This document shows, piece after piece, positions 24,890-33,687 of a stretch of DNA of 36,000 bases. The notes under the pieces were generated by a model. The model was given only the letters and a program-made list of their open reading frames with translations, did not search any database and was not told the origin of the DNA. Source of the stretch: Desulfovibrio sp. DV (lineage in GTDB: Bacteria > Desulfobacterota > Desulfovibrionia > Desulfovibrionales > Desulfovibrionaceae); contig NZ_MLBG01000035.1 of the NCBI RefSeq assembly GCF_001936595.1, positions 1-36,000 of the forward strand, read 5' to 3'. Both the position numbers and the translations under genes were made by a program. How positions within the stretch are numbered: position 1 is the stretch's first letter; each line of letters starts with the position of its first letter.

Positions 24890-25669
24890 CTACGGGGTGT
24901 TGGCCGCTTTGCCGGCCTTGGCCGCAACCCCGACGAATTCCTCAAGAATTTCAATAGGGACGGCACCTCTGACCGGTGCTCCGTTCACCAGGAAAACCGG
25001 CGTTCCCTCGAACCCGAAATCCCGGGCTTCCTTGGTATCCGCCGCCACCCGGTCGGCCAGATCCTTGCGCTTCAGGTCCTCGGCCAGCTTTTTGGCATCA
25101 GCCCCGACTTCCTTGGCAATGGCGTCGAGGACTTCGTCGCCCTTTTCCGACACGTCTTTTTGCCGGGCAAAGACCCCGTCCATGAACGCCCAGGCCTTTT
25201 TGGGGTCCTGTAGGTTTATGGCTTCGAAATACAACGCGGCCCGGATGCTGTTTTTGCCGGTGGCAAAATGCTTAAAGACCAATCGGGTGTCTTCCGGGTG
25301 GTTCTCGATCAAGGTCTTGACCGTACCCGAAGCCTGTCCGCAAAAATGGCACAGGAAATCGGAATACTCCACAATGGTTACAGGGGCGTTTTGCGGTCCA
25401 AGCGAGGCCCGGCCGGCTTCCAGGACCGGGGTCAACGGTTTGGCCAGGGATTGGGCGAAACGAACCCGTTCAAGTTCCTTCTGGCGTGCCCGGGCAGTGG
25501 TTTCGATCACTTCCAGCACGGCCGGGCCCTGCTGCCGGATCGCCTCAAGCACTATTTCAGGATGGTCCCGCAACACCTTGCGAACCCGCTCAACATCATC
25601 TTCAGCCTTGGCCGGCTGCGCCATCGTGCAGACCAGCGCTGCCGCGACAAGCCAACTCCATTTGCCCAT
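24890..25669 (-). CDS. DsbA/Com1-like periplasmic thiol-disulfide oxidoreductase
   Basis: A 259-residue exported thioredoxin-fold protein. It has a signal peptide (MGKWSWLVAAALVCTMAQPAKA), a helical pre-region (about 25-75; VRKVLRDHPEIVLEAIRQQGPAVLEVIE), as in many Com1-type proteins, then the DsbA domain with VTIVEYSDFLCHFCGQ (active-site CHFC, C107 and C110) and the cis-Pro loop FEGTPVFLVNG. It probably oxidises or isomerises disulfides in secreted proteins. GGAGGAAGC directly before the ATG at 25669 decides the start; a much longer open frame upstream is not real. It is the first gene of the minus-strand run. Confidence 0.92.
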   Translation of the reverse strand: MGKWSWLVAAALVCTMAQPAKAEDDVERVRKVLRDHPEIVLEAIRQQGPAVLEVIETTARARQKELERVRFAQSLAKPLTPVLEAGRASLGPQNAPVTIVEYSDFLCHFCGQASGTVKTLIENHPEDTRLVFKHFATGKNSIRAALYFEAINLQDPKKAWAFMDGVFARQKDVSEKGDEVLDAIAKEVGADAKKLAEDLKRKDLADRVAADTKEARDFGFEGTPVFLVNGAPVRGAVPIEILEEFVGVAAKAGKAANTP

Positions 25670-25786
25670 GCTTCCTCCGATACCCGCCACAACGGCGTTT
25701 TGATATGGCCGCTTCATAAACCCTTTCCCCCGGGCTGTCATCAACCGGCCATCGACGAAACCGGCCATGGATGGTAGTCTTGCCCC

Positions 25787-25972: not shown

Positions 25973-26515
25973 ATGCCGCGATGCCCGACTCTGCCCAGCC
26001 GATGCGGCCTTTCCGGCCTGCTGGTCCTGTTTTTTTGCCTGCTCGCCACCGCCTGCCAGCGGCCGCCTGCCGACGACGCCGCCCGCCTGATCCGGGTCAA
26101 TGAGCTGTATGCCGGCTACAAGCAGGATTTCCCGGATGCGCCGGAAATTTCCCCTGGTGCGGCGCTGTCCCTGCAGCACCAGGGCAAGGCCGTCTTTATC
26201 GACGCCCGCAGCGACGCGGAACGCGCCGTATCCACGCTGCCGGGAGCCCTCACCGTGGAACAGTTTACCAATGATCCCGGCCGTTTTGCCGGCAAGACCG
26301 TGGTGGCCTACTGCACCATCGGCTATCGCAGCGGGCTGCTTGCCCAGAAACTCAGCCGGCAAGGCATCCCCGTGGCCAATCTGGCCGCCGGACTGCTTGG
26401 CTGGCTCCATGCCGGGGGCACCCTGGTCGACGCCAAAGGCGCGCCAACCAAGCAGGTGCATGTCTACGGCCGTACCTGGGATCTGGCCCCCCTGGGCTAC
26501 TCTGCCGTGTGGTGA
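25973..26515 (+). CDS. Rhodanese-domain lipoprotein
   Basis: A 180-residue exported protein with a lipobox-like LLATAC (Cys28), then a rhodanese domain (about 55-150): AVFIDARSDAERAVSTLPGAL and the active-site loop AYCTIGYRSG with catalytic Cys114, so persulfide chemistry is possible. It continues with NLAAGLLGWLHAGGTLVDAKGAPTKQVHVYGRTWDLAPLGYSAVW, a C-terminal stretch that recurs in a distinct group of rhodaneses, as I recall. It converges on, and overlaps by 19 bp, the glycosyltransferase gene on the other strand. The lipobox has Ala instead of Leu at -3, so lipidation is likely but not sure. Confidence 0.88.
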   Translation: MPRCPTLPSRCGLSGLLVLFFCLLATACQRPPADDAARLIRVNELYAGYKQDFPDAPEISPGAALSLQHQGKAVFIDARSDAERAVSTLPGALTVEQFTNDPGRFAGKTVVAYCTIGYRSGLLAQKLSRQGIPVANLAAGLLGWLHAGGTLVDAKGAPTKQVHVYGRTWDLAPLGYSAVW

Positions 26516-28563
26516 GACGGCCGGCCATAGTAGCGCCTGTAATACCGCCGGCCGGTTGGATCGGCCAGCCCCAGACGCCGGGCGGCCAGATAGGCCAGAA
26601 AGAGCCGCACCACCCCGGCGGCCTTGCCGCCAAAACCCGGGCCGGCCCAGCGCCGCCCGGACACCACGATGCCGCCCCCAAGACTGATCGTCTCCCCGAT
26701 GCTGCGAAGCCGCAGGGAGAGCTCCACATCTTCCATGAGCGCCATATCCGGAAATCCGCCGGCGGCAGACAAAGCCTCGCGCCGAAAAAACTGTCCCTGG
26801 TCGCCAAAGCCGATGCCGGTAGCCAAAGCGCGCAGCGCATTGAGCCCGGTGAGCAGGGTCAGTCCCCGGCCCGAGGCGTCAAACCGCATCCCGACCACGC
26901 CGCCGGCCACCTCGGGCCAACTATTGAGCGCCCGGACGATGCGGGCCGGCACATCCGGGTCAAGGACGGCGTCGGCATGAAGCACCAGCACGGCATCAGT
27001 CCGGCAGTCGCGAAGGGCCGTCGCAATCTGCCCGCCCCGGCCGCCGCCCGACACAACCACCCGGGCGCCGTACAGGCTGGCCAGGGCCACGGTCCGGTCG
27101 CCTGAGCCGCCGTCGGCCACCACCACATCGGCAACCCCTGTCTGCCTCAGGGACCCGAGGCAGCGGCCAATGACGGCCTGTTCGTTTCGGGTCGGCACAA
27201 TAACCGAAAGCGTGCGTACAGGCCCGAAGGCGGTTCGCCGGGCAACAAAGGCCGGCCGGCGAAGCCTCCAGGCCAACAGCCACAGAAACGGCAGCCAGGC
27301 GGCGGCCAGGGCCGCCCCTTCCCCGCCAAGGCCGGACCCGCGCAACCAAGCCGGCGCGGTGACCAAACCCTGGGCGGCCAGCAGCCACAACACCGGCCAG
27401 CCGGGACGCAGCACCCAAAACGGCACGACAACCAGGAAATACCAGGGATAGACCGTCGGCAGACAGGCAAGCACCGTGAGCATGGCCCAAAGCCCGCCCC
27501 GAAGGGGGTCTGCCACAGCCAGCCAGCCCACAGCCAGGACAGCCGCGCCAACAGCCAGGGACACGGCCGGGGCCGCCCCGCCCAGGACCGGCTGGAAAAG
27601 GGCCGCCACCGGCCCGCCATGGGACACAAAACCGGCGAAAACGGCCAGGGAACGAAATACGCCCCAGCCAGCCTCGCGGTAGGGCCAGAAGCAGGCCAGG
27701 GGCAGGAGGCACCACAGCGACTTGGACAAGTTCCCTGGCCGCAGAAAAAACGCGATGAGCACCAGGGCCGGATATTTGACCATACCGGCTGCACCCAGCC
27801 AGAAAAAGCCCCAGCCGTCGCGGCGGCCGTCAAAAGCGGCCAGGGCCAAAACCACAGCCAGGGCCACCAGGGCATCGAGATGGCCCTCGCCCGCCCCCAT
27901 GGCCAGGGTCAGGGGACTTAACGCAAAAAAAGCCAGCCAGGCCGGCGGCAGGCGACGGGCGGCCAAAACCCGGGCCAGGACCAGGCAGGCGGCCAGATCG
28001 GCCAGCAGGGCCAGGGCCTTGAAAGCGGCCGGCGTGGGCGAGAGAGCGGCCGTAAACCGGCAGACCAGTTCGGCCAGAGGCGGGTAAGCCGCCGAAAGCT
28101 CGGGATGGTTGACCCGGGCAAGGCGCTTTTGGCCGGCCTCGGAGAGCAGGGACGGCACAGCCGCATCCCCAGGGGCGAGCCGGTAGGGGTTGGCGCCGGC
28201 GGATTGCATGTCACCTTCGACGATGTAGCGGTTGACGTCGGAATCGGCCGACCAGGCCCAGCCAAAAAGCAGTCTGACGAACACGGCCAGGGCCAGGATG
28301 CCCGCCGTGGTCCCCCGCCTGGTCCGGTCGGCCGGAAAACGCCGCACGCTCCAGGCCAGGGCGGCAAACGAGGCCAGAAAAAAAACGCAAAAAACCAGCC
28401 GGCCGGCCTCGTACCGACCGCACAGGGCCAGCCCTGCCAAGACGGCCGTAAGGACCGCGAACCGCCAGAAATCCATCACCGTGTTCGGTGCGATTGCACC
28501 TCGCAGACCAGGGTTGGATACAGATCGGGGGAAAGAGCCCGACCCGGGTGAGGCCTCGATCAC
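26497..28563 (-). CDS. Fused GT-C membrane glycosyltransferase and GT2 glycosyltransferase
   Basis: A 688-residue two-part enzyme. Residues about 30-445 are a polytopic GT-C-type transferase with many hydrophobic spans and a first-loop acidic motif in WSADSDVNRYIVEGDMQSAGANPYRLAP (D-x-D like), plus HPELSAAYPPLAELVC. Residues about 450-688 are a soluble GT2 domain: LSVIVPTRNEQAVIGRCLGSL, VVVADGGSGDRTVALA, GARVVVSGGGRGGQI, VLVLHADAVLDPD, GFGDQGQFFRREAL, GGFPDMALMEDVELSLRL. The GT2 part resembles TIGR04283, a family linked in databases to arsenosugar biosynthesis. The GTG at 28563 overlaps the DUF547 stop (GTGA), suggesting coupling; an ATG at 28476 is an alternative start. The stop overlaps the convergent rhodanese gene. 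Confidence 0.85.
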   Translation of the reverse strand: MIEASPGSGSFPRSVSNPGLRGAIAPNTVMDFWRFAVLTAVLAGLALCGRYEAGRLVFCVFFLASFAALAWSVRRFPADRTRRGTTAGILALAVFVRLLFGWAWSADSDVNRYIVEGDMQSAGANPYRLAPGDAAVPSLLSEAGQKRLARVNHPELSAAYPPLAELVCRFTAALSPTPAAFKALALLADLAACLVLARVLAARRLPPAWLAFFALSPLTLAMGAGEGHLDALVALAVVLALAAFDGRRDGWGFFWLGAAGMVKYPALVLIAFFLRPGNLSKSLWCLLPLACFWPYREAGWGVFRSLAVFAGFVSHGGPVAALFQPVLGGAAPAVSLAVGAAVLAVGWLAVADPLRGGLWAMLTVLACLPTVYPWYFLVVVPFWVLRPGWPVLWLLAAQGLVTAPAWLRGSGLGGEGAALAAAWLPFLWLLAWRLRRPAFVARRTAFGPVRTLSVIVPTRNEQAVIGRCLGSLRQTGVADVVVADGGSGDRTVALASLYGARVVVSGGGRGGQIATALRDCRTDAVLVLHADAVLDPDVPARIVRALNSWPEVAGGVVGMRFDASGRGLTLLTGLNALRALATGIGFGDQGQFFRREALSAAGGFPDMALMEDVELSLRLRSIGETISLGGGIVVSGRRWAGPGFGGKAAGVVRLFLAYLAARRLGLADPTGRRYYRRYYGRPSHHTAE

Positions 28564-29351
28564 GGCTGCACCGCCGCGTCCCCGGTTTCAGGAGTCCGGG
28601 TTGGCAGGGGCCGGTCGTTAAGGGACCAGTCATAGTCGGTAAAGACAAGACGCCGGTCGGTAACGGTATCCAGGCTCGCGGCCAGCTGCGGCCCGGCATA
28701 GCGGCGGAGAAAGGCAAAGACACCGTCGGTGCCGCCGAAATCCTCGCTGTACCAGTCAAAAATCCGGCTGACGTGGAGTCTGGCTTGCCGGACAAAAGTA
28801 TTGGCCGGATTATTTATAAACGCCGCAGTCTGTGCCTCAAGCTGCACATCGAGGTCCACGCCCCTGTACGGTTGTGCAGCCAGCGGCGGACAGCTGCGTG
28901 AAGCGCAATTCAGGGCAAAATGCACCCGGGGATCTGGAAAATTGCGGCGTAAAATACCGTGTTCAATGTCATCAAGACTGACGACACCGCCATGGAGGCG
29001 TACAAATTTTCGTTTCCAGGGAGAACGAATGAAGCTGTCGGCTTCTTTTATAGAACGGATACCAGGCCAATGTTCGAGGATGAGTTGTATCGTCCATATA
29101 TTATAAGCATTAATATAATATGCCTTCCTATCAGCCTCATGCAAACCGACCGGATCAATGGCAGCCATACTGTCCAAAGCAACCTGGACCTGTTTTTCCT
29201 GTTCTTTCAAGCCGGAATAGTCCACGACGCCGTTTCGGACATGGGCGGCCAACAGTGCGCCGTAGGCATCCTGATACGACGGCTGGCCGCAAGCCTCGCC
29301 GGAAAATACGGCAAGCAGCAGCAAAATCGACAATTCCAACCACTGGCGCAT
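28560..29351 (-). CDS. DUF547-domain exported protein
   Basis: A 263-residue protein with an N-terminal signal sequence (LELSILLLLAVFSGEACG) and a DUF547 domain covering most of the rest. Characteristic blocks are VDYSGLKEQEKQVQVALDSM, DRKAYYINAYNIWTIQLILEHWP, SLDDIEHGILRRNFPDPRVHFALNCASRSCPPL. The domain's biochemical role is unknown; the conserved Asn, His and Cys residues hint at an enzyme (it is distantly compared with papain-like folds in some work). The start ATG at 29351 has GGGAGGGA upstream. It is coupled to the GT fusion by a 4-bp overlap and is the first gene of that pair. Local GC is lower around 29080-29130. Confidence 0.88.
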   Translation of the reverse strand: MRQWLELSILLLLAVFSGEACGQPSYQDAYGALLAAHVRNGVVDYSGLKEQEKQVQVALDSMAAIDPVGLHEADRKAYYINAYNIWTIQLILEHWPGIRSIKEADSFIRSPWKRKFVRLHGGVVSLDDIEHGILRRNFPDPRVHFALNCASRSCPPLAAQPYRGVDLDVQLEAQTAAFINNPANTFVRQARLHVSRIFDWYSEDFGGTDGVFAFLRRYAGPQLAASLDTVTDRRLVFTDYDWSLNDRPLPTRTPETGDAAVQP

Positions 29352-29532: not shown

Positions 29533-32500
29533 ATGATAAAGCCCAGGCATTCCTACACCGGCTGGCTCACAACGCATTTTCGCATCACTTTCTTGCGTGG
29601 ACTTCTCGTCGCCCTTTTCAGTCTTTCCCTGCCCTTTCCTTCATATTGTGAACCATCCCCGCGTTTCCAGCGCCTCTCCCTGGAGCAGGGCCTGTCGCAA
29701 TCCTATGTCGTGTGCATGGCCCAGGACAAGCAGGGATTTCTCTGGATTGGCACCTATGACGGCCTCAACCGGTATGACGGAACCCGGGTGACGGTCTATC
29801 GCAACCAGCCCGGCAACCCCGCCTCGCTGCCGGACAACAGCATCCGCACCCTCTACGTTGATCCCGAAACCGGGACACTGCTTGTCGGTACGAAAAACGG
29901 CGGCATGGCTGCCTACGACCGCGCTTCCGACACGTTTCACCCCTTCCCTGTGGCCAATCCCTATCCAGGCGGCGACGAGGACAAGGAAATCCGGGCCATT
30001 GCCCGCGATGCCAGCGGGCAGCTGTGGGTGGGGGGTGAAAGCGGCCTGGCTCGGTTGAACCCGATCGCCGACACCGCCACTGCCGTGGTTTTGTCCAATG
30101 CCAACGGCCAGCCGGACCGGAGCCGGATCATGGCCGTCCGCCCCCGGGCGCAAGGCGGCGTTTTCGCGGCCACCAGCCGCGGCGTCTATGCCGTTGCCGA
30201 CGCCCTGGCGCCAGCCATGCCCCTGCTCCCCGGCTCCCTGGGCAACCTGCCGGCCGATGTCCGCATAAACGGTCTGGACTGCGACGGCCCGAACACCTTG
30301 TGGGTGCTGACCGAAATCCACGGGGCCTATCGCTTCGACCTCGCGACCGGCCATGTGGACCATTACCTGCCCGGATACGCCACCTGGTTTGCCTTCCGTG
30401 ATTCCAGGGGCGAGCTGTCTATCGGCACCAACCGGGGGCTGGCCCGGATGCGCCCGGCCGCCGACCGTCCCGGAGGCTACGAGGCGGTCATGGCCGTCAA
30501 CAACCCGCTTGACCCGGAAAGCCTGCCCCAGGACGAGATCATGAGCGTGGTGGAGGACGCCGGGGGCTTGCTGTGGTTTGGCACCTATTCCGGCGGCGTG
30601 GGCAAGTACAATCCCGCCTACCAGGCTTTTGTGCCCTATCGCAGCGGCCCGGGGCAGCCCGGCGCCCTGTCCGGCAACGCCGTCAGCGCGGTCGCCCTGG
30701 AAACTGCCGACAGTCTGTGGGTCGGCACCCGCTATAGTGGCCTTAACCACGTCAACCGCCGCACCGGCCAGGTCACTGTCTTTCGTGCCGATCCATCCAA
30801 CCCCGACAGCCTCGCCGATGACGGCATCAACTGCCTCTATTTCGACCGCAAAGGCCGGCTGTGGATCGGAGCCACGGACAAGGGCCTGGACCGCTATGTT
30901 CCCGAAAGCGGCAAGTTTGTGCATTTCCGGCATGATCCCGACGATCCGGACAGCATCAGCCAAAACAAAATCTGGTGGATTGCCGAGGACGCGGACGGCG
31001 TGCTGTGGCTCGGCACCAGTTCCGGGGGGCTGGTGCGCTTTGACCCGGAAACGGGCAAGGCCAAAACCTATCGCCACAACCCCGACGATCCAGGCAGCTT
31101 AAGCCACAACCGCGTGCGCCACATCACCCCGGCCCCGGGCGGCATCCTGTGGATCGGCACCAACGCCGGGCTTAACCGTTTCGACGTCAAGACCCAGACC
31201 TTTACCCACTGGGAGCACATCCCCGGATCAGAGCAATCGCTGTCCAACAACCGCGTCACCCCCATCCTGCTCGATCCGTCGGGAGAGTTGTGGATCGGCA
31301 CGGACGCGGGACTCAACCATTTTGATCCGCTAACCGGCACGTTTACGCGCCTGACCATTGACGACGGCCTTGGCAACGACGGCATCCAGGGTATTTTGCG
31401 GGACAGCGACGGCAATCTCTGGTGCAGCACCTTTCGCGGACTTTTCCGCTATACGCCGGCCACCGGGGAAATCCGTAATTTCACCGACCGCGACGGCCTC
31501 ACCGGCCTGGAATTCTGGATGAACGCCTTTGCCCAGGGCCCGACCGGCGAAATGTTCTTTGGCGGCACAAACGGGCTGACCGCCTTTTTCCCGGACCGGA
31601 TCCGGCCCAATCCCCATGTCCCGCCCGTGGTCATCACCGGAATCTCGGTCCGCAACAAGCCCTACCACGGTGCCGGCAATCCGGCCGTGGCCAGCCGACT
31701 CGATCTGCTCCATAAAGACAACAACCTGGAATTCACCTTCGCCGCCCTGGACTTTGCCGATCCCTCGCGCAACCGCTTCACCCACAAGCTTGAAGGATTC
31801 GACGCCGATTTTTCGCCGCCTTCTTCCGGCAACACCGCCACCTACACCAATCTCGATCCCGGAATGTATCGGCTGCGGGTGCGGGCATCCAACAACGACG
31901 GCCTTTGGAACGACCCAGGAGTCAGTCTGGCCATCACAATTTCGCCGCCGTTTTGGGGCACATGGTGGTTCCGCTCCCTGATCGCCCTGGCCGCTGTGGC
32001 GCTGCTCAACCAGGGCCACCGCTGGCGCGTGGCCGCCATGGAACGCCGCCGCCGCGAGCTTGAGGAAACCATCCGCCGCCGCACCGCTGATCTGGAAAAC
32101 GAGATAGAGGAGCGCAAAGCCGCCGAAGAAGCCCTGCACCGCAGCCGCATGAGCTTTTCCGCCATTTTCCAGTTTTCGCCCCTGGCCGTCACTATCAGCG
32201 AGGAAGAATCCGCCCGGATGCTACGCGTCAACGAAGCATTCACCCAATTGACGGGCATCCCTGCCGAACAGACCCTGGGCCGCACCTCTCTGGAACTGGG
32301 GTTCTGGGAACGCTTCGAGGCCCGCGACGACCTCGTGCTCGAACTGCAGGTGGCCGAATCCATCATCAACCGGGAACTGGCCTTTCGCCATGCCGACGGC
32401 CGGCGCATCATCGGTCTGTGTTCGTGCGTGATCATCGACGCCTTTGACAAGCGTTGCCTGCTCATGCTCATCGCCGACATCACCGACCGCAAGGCCCTGG

Positions 32501-33687
32501 AAGTCGAACTCAGGGCCGCCCGGGAGCGGGCCGAACAGGGCAACCGGGCCAAGTCAGACTTCCTGGCCAACATGAGCCACGAAATCCGCACCCCCATGAA
32601 CGCCATCATGGGCATGGCCGAACTGCTGGCCGGGACATCGCTTACCCCCCGCCAAAAGCGCTATGTGGACATTTTCCAGCACTCGGGCCTGATCCTTATG
32701 CGCATTATCAACGACATTCTCGACCTGTCCAAGCTCGAGGCCGGGAAACTGACCCTGATGCCCGAACCATTCAACCTGCCCGAAGCCCTGTTTCAGACCT
32801 GCGCCGTCTTTACCCCCCAGGCCGAAGAGAAGGGCCTGCCTCTGTACTGCGAACTCGATCCGGCTCTGCCCCAGAGCTGCCTGGGCGACTCGATCCGGCT
32901 GACCCAGATTGTGGCCAACCTGCTGGCCAATGCCTGCAAGTTCACCCATGAGGGCGAGATCCGGCTGACGGCCTCCGCAGTTTCCCTGAATGAAGACACC
33001 TTCCTGTTGCGGGTCGTTTGCCGGGATACGGGCATCGGCATCGCCCCCCAGGACCTTGAACGGGTGTGCGAGAACTTTTTTCAGGCCGGTGTGGACCAGC
33101 GGCGCGGCACCGGTTTGGGGCTGGCCATTGCCAAGCGGCTGATCGAACTTATGCAGGGTGAACTGGCCATCCAAAGTGTGCTCGGACAGGGAACCGTGGC
33201 CACAGCCACAGTCCGGCTCGGTTATGCCACAGACAGCCTGACGCCTATGGCCGCCGTCCCGGCCCAGAACGCAGCCCAGTCAGGACTGGCAGACAACTTC
33301 GGCAAGCCATGGCGCGTGCTTATGGCCGACGATTCGATCGGCAACCGGCAGGTAGTCAGTCTTTTCCTGGAAAATGAGCCGGTTGTCCTGGAAGCAGTGG
33401 ACAACGGCCTGGACGCCCTGGAACGCCTCAAAAAAGGCGGCATCGACATCGCGATCATGGACCATGTCATGCCGGTCATGGACGGCCTGAGCGCCACCCG
33501 GGCCATCCGCGCCCATGAACGCAGCAACGGCACGTCCCCGGTCCCCATCATCGGCATCACGGCCCGGGCCTTTCCCGAGGACGAAGCCGCCTGCCTGGAT
33601 GCCGGCTGCTCGGCCTACTTAAGCAAACCCGTCCGCCGCGCCGCCCTGATCGCCACCATGAACCGGCTGCTTCGAAACCCGGGCTGA
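29533..33687 (+). CDS. Two-component-propeller hybrid histidine kinase
   Basis: A 1384-residue one-protein signalling chain. A signal or anchor region (about 15-40) leads to a periplasmic sensor made of two seven-bladed propellers of Reg_prop repeats (for example DKQGFLWIGTYDGLNRYDG, DRKGRLWIGATDKGLDRY, DPSGELWIGTDAGLNHFD; about 45-690), then a Y_Y_Y domain (about 735-805), a membrane span near 813-830, a coiled linker, a PAS domain (about 870-990), the HisKA helix with H1016 in ANMSHEIRTPMNAIMG, an ATPase domain (RDTGIGIAP, GTGLGLAI) and a receiver domain with phospho-acceptor D1310 in IMDHVMPVMDG. Unlike the well-known Bacteroides HTCS proteins it has no DNA-binding output, so a separate Hpt or regulator must act downstream. 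No ribosome site is evident before ATG 29533. Confidence 0.93.
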   Translation: MIKPRHSYTGWLTTHFRITFLRGLLVALFSLSLPFPSYCEPSPRFQRLSLEQGLSQSYVVCMAQDKQGFLWIGTYDGLNRYDGTRVTVYRNQPGNPASLPDNSIRTLYVDPETGTLLVGTKNGGMAAYDRASDTFHPFPVANPYPGGDEDKEIRAIARDASGQLWVGGESGLARLNPIADTATAVVLSNANGQPDRSRIMAVRPRAQGGVFAATSRGVYAVADALAPAMPLLPGSLGNLPADVRINGLDCDGPNTLWVLTEIHGAYRFDLATGHVDHYLPGYATWFAFRDSRGELSIGTNRGLARMRPAADRPGGYEAVMAVNNPLDPESLPQDEIMSVVEDAGGLLWFGTYSGGVGKYNPAYQAFVPYRSGPGQPGALSGNAVSAVALETADSLWVGTRYSGLNHVNRRTGQVTVFRADPSNPDSLADDGINCLYFDRKGRLWIGATDKGLDRYVPESGKFVHFRHDPDDPDSISQNKIWWIAEDADGVLWLGTSSGGLVRFDPETGKAKTYRHNPDDPGSLSHNRVRHITPAPGGILWIGTNAGLNRFDVKTQTFTHWEHIPGSEQSLSNNRVTPILLDPSGELWIGTDAGLNHFDPLTGTFTRLTIDDGLGNDGIQGILRDSDGNLWCSTFRGLFRYTPATGEIRNFTDRDGLTGLEFWMNAFAQGPTGEMFFGGTNGLTAFFPDRIRPNPHVPPVVITGISVRNKPYHGAGNPAVASRLDLLHKDNNLEFTFAALDFADPSRNRFTHKLEGFDADFSPPSSGNTATYTNLDPGMYRLRVRASNNDGLWNDPGVSLAITISPPFWGTWWFRSLIALAAVALLNQGHRWRVAAMERRRRELEETIRRRTADLENEIEERKAAEEALHRSRMSFSAIFQFSPLAVTISEEESARMLRVNEAFTQLTGIPAEQTLGRTSLELGFWERFEARDDLVLELQVAESIINRELAFRHADGRRIIGLCSCVIIDAFDKRCLLMLIADITDRKALEVELRAARERAEQGNRAKSDFLANMSHEIRTPMNAIMGMAELLAGTSLTPRQKRYVDIFQHSGLILMRIINDILDLSKLEAGKLTLMPEPFNLPEALFQTCAVFTPQAEEKGLPLYCELDPALPQSCLGDSIRLTQIVANLLANACKFTHEGEIRLTASAVSLNEDTFLLRVVCRDTGIGIAPQDLERVCENFFQAGVDQRRGTGLGLAIAKRLIELMQGELAIQSVLGQGTVATATVRLGYATDSLTPMAAVPAQNAAQSGLADNFGKPWRVLMADDSIGNRQVVSLFLENEPVVLEAVDNGLDALERLKKGGIDIAIMDHVMPVMDGLSATRAIRAHERSNGTSPVPIIGITARAFPEDEAACLDAGCSAYLSKPVRRAALIATMNRLLRNPG

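Follow-up and report, generated by a model that had tools for sequence, protein, structure and literature searches.

Contig NZ_MLBG01000035.1 of Desulfovibrio sp. DV (contig C35 of a 4.85-Mb genome) encodes, in the 36,000-nucleotide stretch analyzed here (the window), a single protein chain in which a polytopic glycosyltransferase half of the GT-C type is followed by a glycosyltransferase family 2 (GT2) half. We hold with moderate confidence that this fusion is a bifunctional membrane glycosyltransferase acting on an envelope glycan or glycolipid. A reading of the window from its sequence alone (the sequence-only reading) had already proposed both the joining of the two transferases and a glycan or glycolipid as the product. 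The open reading frame (ORF), its domain matches and its predicted GT-C fold bear out the first point, and the modeled structure is consistent with the second.

Within the fusion, PF00535 matched residues 453-566 and TIGR04283 matched residues 452-659, while residues 1-433 matched no Pfam family at an E value of 1e-3 and the GT-C half was covered by no Pfam or NCBIfam model in the scans made. We searched 59 genomes as relatives, 14 of which, this one included, belong to what we take to be Solidesulfovibrio (the genus, below; genomes, contigs and loci carry G, C and L numbers). The frame is not an annotation artifact, because the fusion was matched in every one of the 13 other genomes of the genus. 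It is a single, near full-length frame in 12 of the 14, including this one; in G009 it occupies two adjacent frames and in G002 it is cut by the contig end. G003 carries two equally scoring full copies on one contig (C3:263304-265280 and 404041-406017). The true start of the protein is uncertain, because the homology of most relatives begins near M36 (the ATG at 28456-28458) or later. With the nearest relative, however, the alignment already starts at residue 1, and the listed GTG overlaps by 4 bp the stop of the gene just upstream, which encodes a DUF547 protein.

The N-terminal half is predicted to have the GT-C superfamily fold, in the form seen in ALG3, GPI mannosyltransferase I (GPI-MT-I) and PimE. 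In an AlphaFold model of the fusion built with 54 aligned family members (predicted local distance difference test [pLDDT] score 91.7, predicted template modeling [pTM] score 0.92), this half superimposed on yeast ALG3 over 334 residues at 3.4 Å (VIA structural alignment, Z 25.5), and its other structural neighbors included Candida GPI-MT-I (Z 21.9), PimE (Z 20.0) and ALG6 (Z 19.5). GPI mannosyltransferase 1 was also retrieved for the fusion by profile search (E 8.6e-4). Residues D109, R112, E116 and G117 follow helix three of the model. Just past this third membrane helix, D109 (28237-28239), conserved in 53 of the 54 members, and E116, conserved in all 54, provide the acidic residue in the first outer loop that is looked for in the GT-C superfamily. 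Enzymes of the ALG3, GPI-MT-I, PimE and ALG6 type use dolichyl- or polyprenyl-phosphate sugars, as their entry titles also indicate.

The structural neighbors of the C-terminal half included Leptospira 6p61, TarS and WrtF (Z ∼21), as well as TarP and SpsA, and a separate search recovered WrtF again together with GpgS. Its residues H529, E611 and D612 are invariant in the 54 members, and D531 is present in 53. In inverting GT2 enzymes that act on hydroxyl groups an ED motif is typical, whereas polyprenyl-phosphate-sugar synthases of the DPMS type carry a DxDxQ metal motif. Because the fusion has the LMED motif, and H-A-D in place of DxDxQ, we think it more likely that the GT2 half glycosylates a hydroxyl acceptor directly than that it makes a lipid-phosphate sugar. 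As for the arrangement of the two halves, loop charges (counted, like those of the linker, over the segment plus three residues at either end) suggest by the positive-inside rule that the GT2 half is cytosolic and that the GT-C active site lies outside. Net charge is +6 in the linker at residues 434-450 (mean of +2.6 over the 54 members) and +4 in the loop at residues 75-81 (family mean of +1.6), compared with -2 (mean of -1.7) for the loop at residues 104-107, before D109.

Taken together, these features outline a possible mechanism. The GT-C half, embedded in the cytoplasmic membrane, would use a polyprenyl-phosphate sugar to glycosylate an acceptor at the outer face, much as ALG3, GPI-MT-I and PimE do, by means of the acidic residues D109 and E116 of the first outer loop. 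In the cytosol, the GT2 half would glycosylate a hydroxyl acceptor at the expense of a nucleotide sugar; D531 is the putative metal-nucleotide site and the E611-D612 pair the candidate catalytic base. Both halves might thereby add sugars to one envelope glycan or glycolipid from either side of the membrane.

The sequence-only reading had likened the GT2 half to TIGR04283, a family named for arsenosugar biosynthesis. The resemblance stands in that TIGR04283 is the nearest named family; membership does not, as the half scored 151.6 bits (155.1 in a genome-wide search) against a curated cut-off of 182 and fell on a separate side of the tree from the unfused proteins. On this basis we regard it as a relative of TIGR04283. 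All 54 fusion members matched the TIGR04283 profile at 1e-10 or better (best 1.9e-61), which counts against a clean split: one or more members in other genomes probably score above the cut-off. This genome also has a TIGR04283 protein over the cut-off (223.5 bits) on contig C69, adjoined by a TIGR04282-like gene (149.8 bits to a custom TIGR04282-type profile). Such an adjacent pair (C69:11271-12706) in a genome where the radical S-adenosylmethionine (SAM) enzyme ArsS was not found indicates that the family names need not mean arsenosugars.

The family extends well beyond the genus. In a genome-collection scan seeded with two motifs of the GT2 half, which misses proteins lacking them, we retained the 80 best of 297 loci encoding relatives, and at 71 of these a single chain, usually of 600-750 amino acids, had both domains. 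By record title, the fusions came from Desulfobacterota (including Desulfobacterales), Nitrosomonas, Verrucomicrobiota/Lentisphaerota, Cloacimonadota, Acidobacteria, Planctomycetota, Zixibacteria and Chitinivibrionales. When 110 GT2 domains were placed on a quickly built tree, a single branch separated the 75 fused from the 35 unfused domains (SH-like approximate likelihood ratio test [SH-aLRT] 98, no bootstrap). This tree left out six fragmented or split loci (L076, L162, L164, L170, L176 and L177), and with all 116 rows included the combined fused label needs five changes. Since a single branch sets the fused domains apart, the fusion appears to be one ancient family whose sister group is TIGR04283. 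Fused and unfused TIGR04283-type domains occur close together in L142, L070, L146 and L167. In L079 and L090, two genes near each other encode GT-C and GT2 separately; the same is seen in L076, where one gene may have been broken. L080, L081, L086 and L089 have GT2 joined to a TIGR04282-type domain.

Coordinates of the fusion, its parts and its neighbors in the window
Feature	Position	Strand	Remarks
GT-C/GT2 fusion glycosyltransferase	26497..28563	-	688 aa; GTG start listed at 28563
GT-C half, residues 36-433, polytopic	27265..28458	-	AlphaFold model, structural alignment, conservation
Arg-rich linker, residues 434-450	27214..27264	-	Net charge
GT2 (GT-A) half, residues 450-663	26575..27216	-	H529-A-D531 and LMED (E611, D612) motifs
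DUF547 protein (PF04784), 263 aa, probably exported	28560..29351	-	91.7 bits, above the gathering cut-off of 27
Rhodanese-like (lipo)protein (PF00581), probably exported	25973..26515	+	37.5 bits; active-site loop YCTIGYRSG
DsbA-like thioredoxin-fold protein	24890..25747	-	Divergent from rhodanese; member of the conserved block

The flanking DUF547 and rhodanese genes named by the sequence-only reading were confirmed by their Pfam matches. The N terminus of the DUF547 protein, read by eye, is signal-like and has no good lipobox. The rhodanese gene converges on the fusion from the opposite strand, overlaps its end by 19 bp, and scored 69.3 bits against NF045521 (rhodanese near glycosyltransferase), below the curated cut-off of 145. 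The DUF547 protein, the only copy found in this genome, gave a confident model (pLDDT 90.1) that matched nothing of note in the PDB (Foldseek best E 1.6; VIA best Z 4.5), and the best E value in a profile search was 0.028, which does not show a new fold. Its residues N84, H144, C149, C154, D204 and D241 do not vary among the 14 members aligned, which suggests an active site. At the 13 other genus loci, tblastn found DUF547 in 12, the rhodanese in 13 and the DsbA-like protein in 12, the two absences being contig ends. DUF547, fusion and rhodanese stand together in 12 other Solidesulfovibrio genomes, and outside the genus in L103 and L118, so that a repeated neighborhood of the three genes, a test set beforehand, was recovered. 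These two probably exported proteins, DUF547 and rhodanese, may act on, or protect, the product outside the cell. A hybrid sensor kinase of 1384 amino acids (window positions 29533-33687) adjoins DUF547. The kinase recurs in L048, L050, L051, L052 and L059; L055 and L057 have just a short fragment that resembles a receiver domain, and none was seen in the fetched stretches of L049, L053, L054 and L058.

Outside the genus, we counted neighbors within 8 kb of the fusion at 70 loci with both domains, some of them on short contigs. Genes in the fetched loci were called with a codon-bias script, which missed a DUF547 gene in L048 that tblastn recovered, and the counts are lower bounds. The commonest partner was a cellulose-synthase-like GT2, found at 46 of the 70 loci. 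It lay directly upstream of the fusion in 39 of the 41 loci of its sequence cluster and was itself fused to the chain in L149, L150 and L154 (1121-1159 amino acids); in these other lineages it may make the backbone. Less frequent were rhodanese (11, including a probably unrelated protein in L157 of 34 bits and 282 amino acids), DUF547 (10), TIGR04282-type proteins (10), an FAD/ferredoxin oxidoreductase (7), ArsS (5) and ArsM-like proteins (4, by a profile made from a single sequence). Another recurring neighbor of the fusion, present in more than one phylum, joins a YpdA-like flavoprotein and a NapH-like polyferredoxin in one chain (L165:4085-6325, L142:3500-5515 and L118:10977-13427); at several loci it is also close to DUF547 and TIGR04282.

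Several observations weigh against our reading of the fusion as a two-sided envelope glycosyltransferase. No partner is obligatory, as 24 of the 70 loci have no cellulose-synthase-like GT2, 60 no DUF547 and 59 no rhodanese. The usual partner is missing here, since no cellulose-synthase-like GT2 was found in this genome at 1e-15, and a search of 12 other genomes of the genus gave, in five, distant partial matches only. In Desulfobacterales the rhodanese adjoins a housekeeping block (aroQ/rpe/rsmB-like by sequence); because parts of that block are next to the fusion also where the rhodanese is absent (L104, L106, L112 and L115), the closeness of the two genes there may reflect synteny rather than function. 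Finally, the GT2 half shows profile similarity to DPMS (56.4 bits), ArnC (57.2 bits) and AglJ (58.8 bits), which keeps a donor-making role for it in play.

That similarity leads to an alternative that we consider unlikely: a self-sufficient two-step enzyme, whose GT2 half makes a polyprenyl-phosphate sugar that is flipped and used by its own GT-C half. The logic of pairing GT-C with GT2 speaks for it, as do the three profile scores and the use of such donors by the GT-C folds closest to the fusion; the invariant H529 in the H-A-D that replaces the DxDxQ of DPMS, and the invariant LMED, typical of hydroxyl-directed inverting GT2 enzymes, speak against it. DPMS was not among the 50 structural matches shown for the fusion model, which does not exclude a synthase role. 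We consider it somewhat less probable still that the fusion glycosylates a small lipid (carotenoid, hopanoid or quinone-like) and not a glycan. One of the 54 members did match CruG and one matched alpha-1,6-mannosyltransferase A (TIGR03459), but no lipid-biosynthesis gene was recognized among 28 recurrent neighbor clusters other than the fusion (of which some were scanned against family libraries), and the commonest partner resembles a polysaccharide synthase.

The least probable of the alternatives, and in our judgment a very unlikely one, is that the fusion makes an arsenosugar or arsenolipid in this organism by glycosylating dimethylarsinoyl riboside. Its support comes from the relation of the GT2 half to TIGR04283, from arsenic genes around the fusion in other lineages and from an ArsM-type methyltransferase in this genome. 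ArsS lies within 8 kb of the fusion at 5 of the 70 non-genus loci, compared with ∼0.08 expected (a rough figure that ignores relatedness), and these five loci amount to four label changes on the tree, that is, four lineages; we therefore rejected a chance neighborhood. In L154, an ArsS domain over the cut-off (TIGR04167, 402.9 bits) is fused to an ArsM-like domain (NF008823, 179 bits; cut-off, 263). This gene stands two positions upstream of DUF547; next in the row come the triple fusion and TIGR04282. At the level of the family, then, the link to arsenosugar genes put forward by the sequence-only reading is real in some relatives. Among 40 ArsS stretches that we fetched, some had DUF547, the oxidoreductase, TIGR04282 or GT2 and many had none. 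Of the two arsenic genes to be sought elsewhere in this genome, an ArsM-type methyltransferase was found over the cut-off (NF008823, 344.9 bits against 263; G000:C8), and ArsS was not. ArsM is also a general detoxification enzyme.

The absence of ArsS from the window, noted earlier, extends to the whole genome, where the best score was 42.4 bits against a cut-off of 300. At 1e-30, ArsS (TIGR04167) was found in none of the 14 genus genomes, of which G002 is 69% and G007 89% complete. Among the 72 fusion genomes, 22 had ArsS over the cut-off (all 22 among the 58 outside the genus; G427 and G489 are one genome, counted twice), a share little above that in the phylum at large (119 of 395), and this presence test gave no clear excess. 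Six of the 395 phylum genomes have a strong fusion match (E <1e-90), three of them with ArsS. The fusion does not need ArsS, since ArsS is present in 0 of 14 genus and 22 of 72 fusion genomes. In oxo-arsenosugar synthesis, arsenic is adenosylated by a radical SAM enzyme, and the source cited for this concerns ArsS (PMC12159101). Because no ArsS was found, the known route appears closed in Solidesulfovibrio, where arsenosugars are unlikely by that route, although in some lineages the fusion seems linked to arsenic genes. The GT2 half, moreover, falls outside the TIGR04283 clade, and a TIGR04283 protein over the cut-off lies elsewhere in the genome (C69). Arsenosugar synthesis was thus rejected as the leading explanation here, and the arsenosugar cluster suggested by the sequence-only reading does not hold for this organism.

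A 1015-amino-acid open frame on G000:C34 (locus L040, minus strand) encodes a radical SAM protein fused to an ArsM-like methyltransferase. As a hidden ArsS-ArsM it was set aside, for its 42.4 bits cover positions 6-150 of the ArsS profile only. ArsM-like matches of ∼190-208 bits (NF008823) in open frames of 487-1015 amino acids occur in 13 of 13 genus genomes searched, the radical SAM part having been checked in the frame of this genome only. We speculate, and think it doubtful, that the fusion and its cellulose-synthase-like partner form an envelope-glycan machine which several lineages have recruited to decorate membrane lipids or surface polysaccharide with a ribose that contains arsenic, Solidesulfovibrio keeping an arsenic-free form. 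ArsS and ArsM would then yield an arsinoyl nucleoside, TIGR04282 would activate it, and the fused enzymes would attach and extend it across the membrane.

Our searches of the literature found nothing on TIGR04283, on DUF547 with radical SAM, on GT-C fusions or on a glycosyltransferase together with arsenosugars and ArsS; by title, work on DUF547 and glycosyltransferases was all on plants, and nothing on bacterial DUF547 was on point. An old family with recurrent partners, spanning sulfate reducers, nitrifiers and Verrucomicrobiota among others, would define an enzyme pair for a glycoconjugate of which those searches found no description. The NCBIfam "arsenosugar" label of the GT2 half does not fit Solidesulfovibrio. 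As a widespread, unlabeled family, the fusion may connect an envelope-glycan module with some of the ArsS clusters, in which the role of the glycosyltransferase, DUF547 and rhodanese genes becomes testable.

Among known systems, ALG3, GPI-MT-I (PIG-M) and PimE share with the fusion the GT-C fold and the acidic residues of the first outer loop. They differ in sequence (10-20% identity in structural alignments) and in lacking a GT2 domain, and they align with the fusion model from about residue 74-82, after two extra N-terminal helices. WrtF, TarS, TarP and SpsA have the GT-A fold in common with its GT2 half; to our knowledge, none is joined to a GT-C half. The standalone arsenosugar GT2 family TIGR04283 shares the GDQ and MEDVEL motifs and, in relatives, some neighbors (TIGR04282, DUF547 and ArsS), but the fusion scores below its cut-off, forms a separate clade and is joined to a GT-C half. 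The partner that is usually encoded upstream is similar to bacterial cellulose synthase (CelA/BcsA), with 125 bits to TIGR03030 for the L156 protein, far under the cut-off of 699. Ppm1 of Mycobacterium tuberculosis likewise has a GT2 anchored to the membrane by fusion; its partner, in contrast, is an acyltransferase, and its GT2 makes polyprenyl-phosphate-mannose.

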